The notes beneath the pieces were generated by a model. That model ran no database searches. It was given only the letters and a program-made list of their open reading frames with translations, and had not been told where the DNA came from. From Candidatus Sulfidibacterium hydrothermale (GTDB lineage Bacteria; Bacteroidota; Bacteroidia; Bacteroidales; F082), in contig NZ_CP083760.1 in NCBI RefSeq assembly GCF_020149915.1, positions 3,038,001 to 3,102,000 of the forward strand: 64,000 bases of DNA, given 5' to 3'. Positions 60,450 to 62,184 of this stretch are shown one piece after another. Each line of letters opens with the position of its first letter. Positions within the stretch are counted from its first letter, which is position 1. The translations under genes were made by a program, and so were the position numbers.

Positions 60450-60886
60450 GTGCTTAATTTTTGGTTGGCAAAACTAAGAAGAAATATTCTAAATAATGGC
60501 ATGCTTAGAAATTTCTTTGGGTAATTCCCTTTTTGATGTGATTGGGTTTTGATAAGAATAAAGTCTGTTTTGTATTGATAATTGTAGCTTTTTCTCTTTT
60601 CCAAATAGTTTTGCAGAAATCTCGAAGGGATGAAATACCAGCCACCTCTGAATAAATTCAGCGTCAATGATAATAAGAGTCGTCCCTGCGGGACTCCAAT
60701 ACACCACGTCTTATCGGCGCTTCGCGTTTAGGGTTTAGGATTTTTGTCTTTTGGTTTTTTGTTTTTTGGGGGTTCAATCCGGGTCATTGGGAAACGACAA
60801 ACGATAAATATTGAGTGCTGAATGGTGAATAGCGAATGGTGAATCGTTGATTTTCAAGATTTTACCTGTATTTTCACTGTCATCCT
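60450..60886. repeat. Degenerate repeat-rich region left of the IS element
   Basis: About 437 bases without a gene. It holds a hairpin GTCCC TGC GGGAC at 60682-60694, GC-rich stretches and tandem-like words (GAATGGTGAATAGCGAATGGTGAATC). Its open frames translate repeats. The last ten bases, CTGTCATCCT, form the left half of the IS target site. Confidence 0.5.
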
Positions 60887-60949
60887 ATGTTTGCAAAAAG
60901 AAATAATTACAGGAAGTGTTAAGTTTGAAAATTATTAACCAATCAGAAG

Positions 60950-61085
60950 AGAAAAAGGAGAAAGATAAAGACTAATGGTTGTCATTAGGCTAAAAAAGCC
61001 CGTTCAGGATGATAGTCCCTTTCTCCTTTCTACTCAATCTTGAACAGTTCGTTAGGCATGAAAGCCTGTATTTAGGATTGAAAAG
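60950..61085 (+). ncRNA. Predicted bridge RNA of the IS110 element
   Basis: In IS110-type elements the noncoding left end encodes a bridge RNA with a target-binding and a donor-binding loop. Here loop 1 has outer stem AAAGGAGAAAG (60954-60964) with CTTTCTCCTTT (61019-61029) and inner hairpin GGCT/AGCC (60988-61000). Loop 2 has outer stem CAATC (61035-61039) with GATTG (61076-61080) and inner hairpin AGGC/GCCT (61054-61067). Loop 1 contains TGTCAT and CCGTTCAGGATGATAG, which match the reconstructed target. Loop 2 contains ACAGTTC and TAGGAT, which match the joined element ends. All folding was done by eye. Confidence 0.65.
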
Positions 61086-61121
61086 ACAAAGTAGAATCCC
61101 TTCTGATAAAAACATCTTGTC

Positions 61122-62093
61122 ATGTGCAAAGTTATAGGAATTGATGTATCAAAATTAACTTTTGATGTTGCTTTTCAAAAAAAAGATGAAAAGTTCTCTT
61201 TTTTCAAATACAGTAATGATGCCAAAGGGTTTACAAAGTTTATGAAGATTATTGATAAAGAGGATCTCTGTGTAATGGAAGCAACAGGCCCTTATTATCT
61301 GTTTTTAGCCCGGTTTCTTTTTAAACAAGGGGTAAAAGTATCCGTAGTTAATCCATTGCAGATTAAACACTTCGTAAGAATGCGAATGGTAAAAGCCAAA
61401 ACGGATAAAAAAGATGCCCTGATGATCGCTTTATATGGCCAATCAGAACAACCCGTTTTGTGGCAACCCGATGAGCCGGTGATTATGCAGGTTCAGCAAA
61501 TTCATTCTGCCATTGAAGGTTTGCAAAAACAGGCAACCATGCTTCATAATCAACTGGAAGCATTTTCCCGGTTTCCTGATTGCGACAAGAAAGTAATGCG
61601 TGAGTTAAGAGCATTGTTAAAAACGATTAAACTGAAAATAGCTAAACTGGAAGCCGGAATACTTGAAAAAATAAAAATACATTATGCCAATACATTTAAT
61701 GCGCTGACATCTATTCCGGGTATTGGACCAAAAACAGCGGCCATCCTGATAGCAATTACCAATAACTTTCAAAAATTTGACAATGCTAAGAGATTATCTT
61801 CTTACGTAGGGTTGGTTCCCAGGATATTTTCATCAGGGACAAGTATAAACGGAAAAGGACACATTACAAAAATGGGGAACAGATATATACGCAAGCTATT
61901 GTATTTATGTTCATGGTCAGCAAAAAAACACAATAGTCAATGTATAGCACTCTATGATAGATTATCAGAAAAAGGAAAGCCCGAAAGAGTTATAAAAATT
62001 GCAATTGCAAATAAGTTGTTAAGACAGGCCTATGCTATTGGAACAAAATTGAATAAATACGAAGAAAATTATGAAAAAATATTTGCTTTTTAA
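61122..62093 (+). CDS. IS110-family transposase (bridge-RNA-guided recombinase type)
   Basis: A 323-residue DEDD transposase. The N-terminal RuvC-like part begins MCKVIGIDVSKLTFDVAF (Asp8), with Glu in VMEATGPYY and Asp residues in AKTDKKDALM. The C-terminal part has SIPGIGPKTAAIL and SSGTSINGKGHITKMGN, the latter carrying the probable catalytic Ser. No frameshift or truncation is visible, so it is likely functional. The noncoding region upstream can encode the guide RNA. Confidence 0.93.
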   Translation: MCKVIGIDVSKLTFDVAFQKKDEKFSFFKYSNDAKGFTKFMKIIDKEDLCVMEATGPYYLFLARFLFKQGVKVSVVNPLQIKHFVRMRMVKAKTDKKDALMIALYGQSEQPVLWQPDEPVIMQVQQIHSAIEGLQKQATMLHNQLEAFSRFPDCDKKVMRELRALLKTIKLKIAKLEAGILEKIKIHYANTFNALTSIPGIGPKTAAILIAITNNFQKFDNAKRLSSYVGLVPRIFSSGTSINGKGHITKMGNRYIRKLLYLCSWSAKKHNSQCIALYDRLSEKGKPERVIKIAIANKLLRQAYAIGTKLNKYEENYEKIFAF

Positions 62094-62100
62094 CACAGTT

Positions 62101-62184
62101 CATCCTGAACGGAGCGAAGCGTAGTGAAGGATCTCAAAAAACTGGCAGTGGTTAAAATAGATTCTTCGCTACGCTCAGAAGGAC
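62101..62184. repeat. REP-like palindromic repeat carrying the IS insertion site
   Basis: GAGCG...GTAGTGAAGGATCT (about 62112-62133) is mirrored by AGATTCTTCGCTACGCTC (62159-62176). Together with CATCCTGAACGG it is a GC-richer palindromic repeat of the dispersed type, interrupted by the IS110 element on its left side. Confidence 0.65.

Follow-up and report, generated by a model that had tools for sequence, protein, structure and literature searches.

A probable bridge RNA encoded at the left end of an IS110 element of Bacteroidota that inserts into palindromic repeats

The left end of an IS110 element in the analysed window, a stretch of 64,000 nucleotides from Candidatus Sulfidibacterium hydrothermale, very probably encodes a bridge RNA that steers the element through the cycle outlined below, in which the transcription and activity steps are predicted. 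Judged by its guides, this RNA most likely targets the element to a single class of short palindromic repeats. At the level of sequence, support comes from the ends of the element, five identical insertions, a conserved fold, and four guides that co-vary with the DNA they face. RNA binding, strand exchange and the circular form are proposed by homology to IS621.

In the proposed cycle, the element would leave its site as a circle, and the joining of its ends would build a promoter from which the left end is transcribed. The recombinase would bind the resulting RNA. The first loop of this molecule would pair with both target strands around AT, with UUGUC-AU reading the left side and UCAGGAU pairing with AT-CCTGA on the right, while the second loop would pair likewise with the joined ends ACAGTTC-AT-CCTA. 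Strand exchange at AT would thereby leave the element inserted at the foot of a palindromic repeat that carries the TGTC tag, and no target bases would be duplicated.

The element and its insertion site

The element occupies positions 60884 to 62103 of the plus strand, as delimited by identical copies and by relatives, and measures 1220 bp including one core AT. Five full copies are present in the genome; they show zero base differences over 1220 bp, and their outer flanks differ. All five lie in the site TGTC-AT followed by CCTGAACG, each inside a different palindromic repeat, with TGTCAT directly before every copy. The same loops are therefore found with the same site in 5/5 copies, which answers the check set by the earlier note, namely whether other copies would combine identical loops with unrelated flanks. 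Uninterrupted GTCATCCTGAACG sites were found at 19 more places in the genome (reversed-pattern control, 0). In the window, the left target CTGTC (60877–60881, plus strand) is followed by the left core AT (60882–60883), and the right core AT (62102–62103) opens the right part of the target repeat, ATCCTGAACG...AGGATCTC (62102–62137, plus strand), which is uninterrupted at the 19 sites. The target sequence for the window element reads TGTCATCCTGAACG. Comparison of the five copies with uninterrupted repeats indicates that insertion is site-specific and duplicates nothing of the target beyond the core.

The split point is unreadable from the window copy because TCATCCT, a target–donor identity, is common to both sides. 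Both copies of the core AT were placed from the relatives, since those with other targets put the core at AT; the junction after CCT, suggested earlier, is thus replaced. A CT core was considered as well and ruled out, as the left guide reads UGUCAUUAG and not UGUCAUCCU and the relatives split at AT. Among the nearer relatives, the core is AT and in a few cases GT.

The target repeat is itself part of a larger composite unit (60850–60886 and 62102–62140 in the window; elsewhere in the genome, for example, at 762–763 kb and 2993–3002 kb). The query that located the five copies also matches 66 other places in the genome over 34–46 bases, some of them in tandem clusters in which left and right parts adjoin.

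The recombinase and its relatives

The recombinase gene (61122–62093, plus strand) encodes 323 aa with the domains DEDD_Tnp_IS110 (PF01548) and Transposase_20 (PF02371), both above cut-off. A profile of nine relatives matches IS621 (8wt6) at E 1.3e-58 and ISCro4 (9t56) at E 3e-58. Residues D8, E53, D95, D98, S238 and G239, which we take to have catalytic roles, are invariant in these nine relatives and aligned with IS621. The non-coding ends are unequal, with 238 bases from 60884 to the start codon vs 10 from the stop codon to 62103. A DEDD RuvC-like domain, PF02371 with its SG motif, a long left non-coding end and site-specific insertion place the element in the IS110 group. Membership of the IS1111 group was rejected, because there the RNA-coding region would be downstream, whereas here the RNA lies upstream and 10 bases follow the stop codon.

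Genome searches for relatives covered 100, 393, 395 and 395 genomes, with differing thresholds and overlapping sets. A search with the single recombinase protein returned no relatives, but an alignment-based scan found 565, of which 80 were kept. The relatives stand at 26–52% identity. By record title, 75 of the 80 kept records belong to Bacteroidota; the others are assigned to Methylophaga, Proteobacteria, Gammaproteobacteria, Parcubacteria and Balneolales, and all of these are metagenome bins.

A conserved RNA with two arms

The predicted bridge RNA, by the extent of its covariance-model match (model R1, 160.5 bits, E 3.6e-32, the window copy being one of the 23 sequences in the model), spans positions 60943 to 61108; it and all its parts lie on the plus strand. 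Its inferred architecture is a three-way junction in which a terminal stem (60943–60949 with 61100–61106) closes a target arm and a donor arm, each with a small hairpin on top of an internal loop. The target arm (60957–61026) comprises the stem GGAGAAAG/CTTTCTCC, the outer stem GACTA/TAGTC and the cap hairpin GGC/GCC (60988–61000). The donor arm (61028–61096) comprises TTCTAC/GTAGAA, TCTT/AAGA and the cap hairpin TAGGC/GCCTG (61053–61068). The earlier note had placed two successive stem-loops of one design within 60950–61085. Covariation supports both arms; the RNA does lie there, but it is longer than this span and includes the terminal stem. Rfam, searched at gathering thresholds over the 64-kb window, reports only two tRNAs.

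The fold of the 166-nt RNA has a predicted energy of -51.1 kcal/mol (z -5.04), and 0/200 shuffles were as stable. This single-sequence fold recovers the terminal stem and the base of each arm; inside the target loop, its pairs differ from those of the covariation structure. The latter comes from an alignment of left ends for which 24 of 30 were taken, the six more divergent ones being dropped by eye, and from which L076 was then removed to leave 23. On these 23 sequences, the seven-helix structure pairs 85.6% of cells, and 33/38 pairs changed on both sides; of the five measures, four are reached by 0/500 shuffles and one by 1/500. When the partner is slid by 1–3 columns, paired cells drop to 39–52%. 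In the target arm, helices 2–4 are paired in 94–100% of cells with changes on both sides; in the donor arm, helices 5–7 are paired in 79–98%, again with changes on both sides. An alignment of 82 distinct rows gives 88.3% of cells paired, 37/37 pairs changed on both sides and 0/500 shuffles in all measures, although it was fitted to the structure and so leans towards it.

The terminal stem pairs in 52% of cells in the 23-sequence alignment and 62% in the 82-row alignment. As this stem aligns poorly, it was tested alignment-free in 81 of the 82 loci: its halves pair better within than between elements, with 0/20,000 permutations reaching the observed value (n=81), and the result was obtained again with 34 nearer elements.

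The model was searched against 94 homologous loci, made up of 79 of 81 representatives of 151 loci, seven with a short upstream region and eight distant ones. At E up to 0.001, it matches 82/94 of them, so that the two-loop fold, whose conservation in homologues had been named as a check, recurs with strong covariation. The search gave 83 matches in total, all 83 on the strand of the gene, with the 3' end lying from 31 bases inside the assumed start codon to 201 before it. No R1 match was found in 12/94 loci, eight of them at 29–33% identity and four at 38–43%. The additional match (L121, 1146–1299) breaks off within the donor loop, and the left end of another element comes next; the RNA gene of one copy was apparently hit by insertion of, or recombination with, a second copy.

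Guides that follow the target

The longest complementary run between the left end and the target, with at most one G-U, is 17 nt; among 1500 dinucleotide shuffles, the mean was 6.9 and the maximum 12. The putative left target guide UUGUC-AU (60979–60985, with U 60979 opposite a bottom-strand G) faces positions -5 to -1, and the putative right target guide UCAGGAU (61004–61010) pairs with AT-CCTGA at positions +1 to +5. Both were compared with their own flanks in 25 relatives. This set was drawn from the 82 RNA-bearing loci and consists of those with a readable left end starting CC or CG, a readable right end, and a right flank starting AT, CT, AC or GT.

Against the left flank of its own element, the left guide agrees at 6.84/9 positions, and against those of other elements at 5.18; the right guide scores 7.48/10 on its own right flank and 5.17 on those of others (25 relatives; 0/20,000 permutations in each case, descent uncorrected). 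Guide and flank share GCCGT + ATTGTTG in L124, GAGTCGT + ATCCCGA in L052, and TATACAAT + ATGTTAG in L164. A poor fit is seen in L190, which at fixed register reaches 3/9 on the left and 5/10 on the right.

Position by position, own matches exceed other matches at -5 to -1 on the left and at +1 to +5 on the right, with no clear excess beyond (n=26; this test includes L129, whose right end was misfound and which the flank filter had dropped from the set of 25). The functional guide would therefore cover about 12 target bases, that is, five bases, the core AT, and five bases. The earlier note had described CCGTTCAGGATGATAG (61000–61015) as complementary to CTGTCATCCTGAACGG with one G-U pair; this complementarity is real, but only about 12 target bases co-vary. 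The match is longer in the window copy because the repeat happens to go on with GAACG and so resembles the constant RNA segment. Beyond the core, GATAG (61011–61015) overlaps the outer stem TAGTC (61013–61017). Additionally, this extension into the left target shows no tracking of the left flank among 33 relatives, where own matches numbered 95 and the permuted mean was 99.6, with 19,054/20,000 permutations at or above the own value. A right guide of 16 nt was rejected on the per-position test, the remainder being constant RNA and outer stem.

These results bear on another reading, in which the left end would be a structured leader of the recombinase mRNA serving regulation and would owe its likeness to the target to a captured piece of repeat. 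The RNA does lie directly before the gene on the same strand, and transposase-regulating small RNAs are reported for ISPpu9. A captured repeat, however, would not give a left half and a right half, each from a different strand, in two loops, would neither follow each relative's flanks nor match the element's own ends, and is hard to reconcile with a match limited to five bases, AT and five bases, so that a leader of this kind is very improbable.

Guides that follow the element ends

The second loop carries the putative left donor guide ACAGUUC-GU (61044–61052) and the putative right donor guide UAGGAU (61073–61078). The guides of the window RNA come together at AT/AU, except for GU in the left donor guide. 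The strings reported earlier stand at their coordinates, namely TGTCAT at 60980–60985, ACAGTTC at 61044–61050 equal to 62095–62101, and TAGGAT at 61073–61078 complementary to ATCCTA across the joined ends. In the window copy itself, the longest run to the joined ends is 8, which is no better than chance when gauged by the shuffle mean of 6.9 for a target of equal length, and the donor claim therefore rests on relatives.

Donor ends could be compared in 36 of the 82 loci. The left donor guide tracks the element's own right end (6.42 own vs 6.07 other, of 7), and the right donor guide tracks its own left end (4.03 vs 3.62, of 5), each with 0/20,000 permutations and descent uncorrected; the differences are small because the ends of the elements are conserved. 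Variants of guide and end go together, as in ACAGATC, in ACAGTAC, and in CGTAAG with ACGAT. L076 is an exception, having the guide ACCGTTC and the end ACAGTTC. Taken together, a conserved RNA has two internal loops that pair and co-vary with the target (n 25 and 26) and with the donor (n 36, small effect). The arrangement of target loop plus donor loop proposed earlier is borne out in this way, as the guides follow the flanks in 25 relatives and the ends in 36.

A putative promoter at the circle junction

The joined ends probably resemble a Bacteroidota-type promoter, to judge by motif and spacing. They read TTG-N20-TAnnTTTG, with a proposed -33 box, TTTG, at 62082–62085 and a proposed -7 box, TATGTTTG, at 60886–60893 (both on the plus strand). 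In the same 36 of 82 loci, 30/36 elements have TTG at a single, constant spacing from the right end, with every other offset at 2 or fewer, and exact TAnnTTTG occurs in 22/36 left ends. Only the position of TTG counts as independent, because the pattern used to locate left ends already held part of TAnnTTTG. This position is no by-product of the protein, since TTG falls beyond the coding sequence wherever the right end is longer. The Bacteroides fragilis consensus is given as TTTG near -33 and TAnnTTTG at -7, and for Flavobacterium johnsoniae the -7 motif only is given (PMC7366714). A junction promoter is also described for IS621 (PMC11208160).

In L127 and L128, both binned as Proteobacteria, the sigma-70-like TTGACY-N17-TATGCT (hand-counted) stands where Bacteroidota relatives have TTG...TAnnTTTG. 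It looks as if the junction promoter had changed with the host, whose assignment is uncertain because these are metagenome bins.

The class of target repeats

Target flanks were collected as 61 distinct right flanks, with AT required after the right-end motif; several copies come from single genomes. Insertion occurred after GTCAT in 41/61 cases. In 30 of these 41, the first 5-mer recurs in inverted form within 12–70 bases, vs a shuffle expectation of 3.2, copies from the same genome not being independent.

This excess also fits recognition of the foot of palindromic repeats by the recombinase, through protein or shape readout, with the likeness of the RNA being secondary. Among the other 20 insertions, however, only 7 have an inverted 5-mer (1.4 expected), yet the guides match the flanks there, as in L124, L053 and L164; moreover, IS621 and ISEc21 are described as RNA-guided (PMC11208160, PMC11187229). 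Readout by protein or shape is accordingly given little credence, and guidance by the RNA is retained.

The target repeat is like the CGTC-tagged REPs, which have a CGTC or TGTC tag and then AT as the first bases of the stem (PMC3733652); the comparison with that survey, which has four families, covered the tag and AT. The window element interrupts CGTC-type repeats, which does not imply that it mobilises them. The 2013 survey reports no dedicated transposase for repeats of this type (PMC3733652). Genome G000 contains six Y1_Tnp (PF01797) matches above cut-off, for example at C1:1656425-1656769, and these proteins could be REP-associated transposases for the targeted repeat.

A sister group with the left end CTTAAGTTTA includes L082, L093, L096, L100 and L106 (G636, 111–139 kb), and L092, L153, L172 and L205 are similar. 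Its flanks are TTTGTT and then mostly RRRY-like bases on the right, and sequences such as TATACAC on the left, which recalls integron attC sites. In G636, a 28-kb stretch holds 5/6 copies of the group, with the best integron-integrase match at 146.6–147.4 kb. As this match scores under the curated cut-off, and as all 14 genomes gave a match in the control, the link to integrons is a lead only.

Whether AT-core three-way-junction bridge RNAs form a Bacteroidota lineage of their own, with a host-type junction promoter, specialised on CGTC/TGTC-tagged repeats and with elements following repeat divergence between hosts, is in our view evenly balanced. If so, the core AT would be the constant first stem dinucleotide of the repeats, and the left guide would read the tag. 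The right guide would track the repeat subfamily (CCTGA, TGCGA, TCCGA), and the elements would thereby follow a repeat as it diverges between hosts.

Comparison with known systems

The guide-RNA system of bridge type was described in 2024. The window element offers a compact predicted recombinase/guide pair from Bacteroidota (323 aa and about 166 nt), together with a natural panel of relatives in which guides and targets change together and which defines the guide as about five bases, AT and five bases. It also adds a set of relatives whose core is not CT, and it links guide-RNA elements with CGTC-type repeats, a class without a dedicated transposase in the 2013 survey (PMC3733652). Natural re-targeting among the relatives, considered with the published work on IS621 and ISEc21, suggests that the pair may be programmable.

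As in the published accounts of IS621 (PMC11208160, PMC11208158), the RNA would be encoded at the left end, with the target arm before the donor arm and guides that include the core; the 5' side of the loop would read the bottom strand and the 3' side the top strand. IS621 likewise has a short recombinase of 315–330 aa and palindromic-repeat targets. The two differ in the core, which is AT here and CT in IS621, and in the outline of the RNA, with a terminal stem here vs a 5' stem-loop in IS621 according to the published text (PMC11208160, PMC11208158). In the 206-base fold of the IS621 left end, an outer closure is also predicted, but with its 5' half ahead of the probable RNA start as reckoned from the 177-nt length. 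The proposed junction promoter is of Bacteroidota type here and sigma-70 in IS621 (PMC11208160). Although the IS621 core is CT with an almost invariant T, AT is reported as functional (PMC11208158), and an AT core therefore fits the enzyme family.

Model R1 gave no match at the IS621 locus at E up to 10, and membership of the IS621 RNA in the same RNA sequence family was set aside on this ground. The element is also not IS621-type in the narrow sense, as it has neither the CT core, nor the 5' stem-loop, nor similarity to the IS621 RNA in sequence and structure. ISCro4 (PDB 9t56) is related in recombinase sequence (E 3e-58), a likeness at the protein level. The seekRNAs of IS1111/IS110 types, such as that of ISEc21, are similar in being upstream non-coding RNAs with short matches to both target strands (PMC11187229). 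ISEc21 belongs to another cluster with longer transposases (345–385 aa), and the likeness drawn here follows its published description (PMC11187229).

In titles and the openings of abstracts, with subscription papers mostly outside this coverage, no paper was found that deals with bridge RNAs from Bacteroidota elements or with CGTC repeats targeted by them. The clade of the window element may be among the supplementary data of PMC11208160, because thousands of IS110s are covered there. Overall, the element and its predicted RNA represent a well-supported further example of a known guide-RNA system, one that appears to differ from the described members in its core, RNA outline, probable promoter type and target class.
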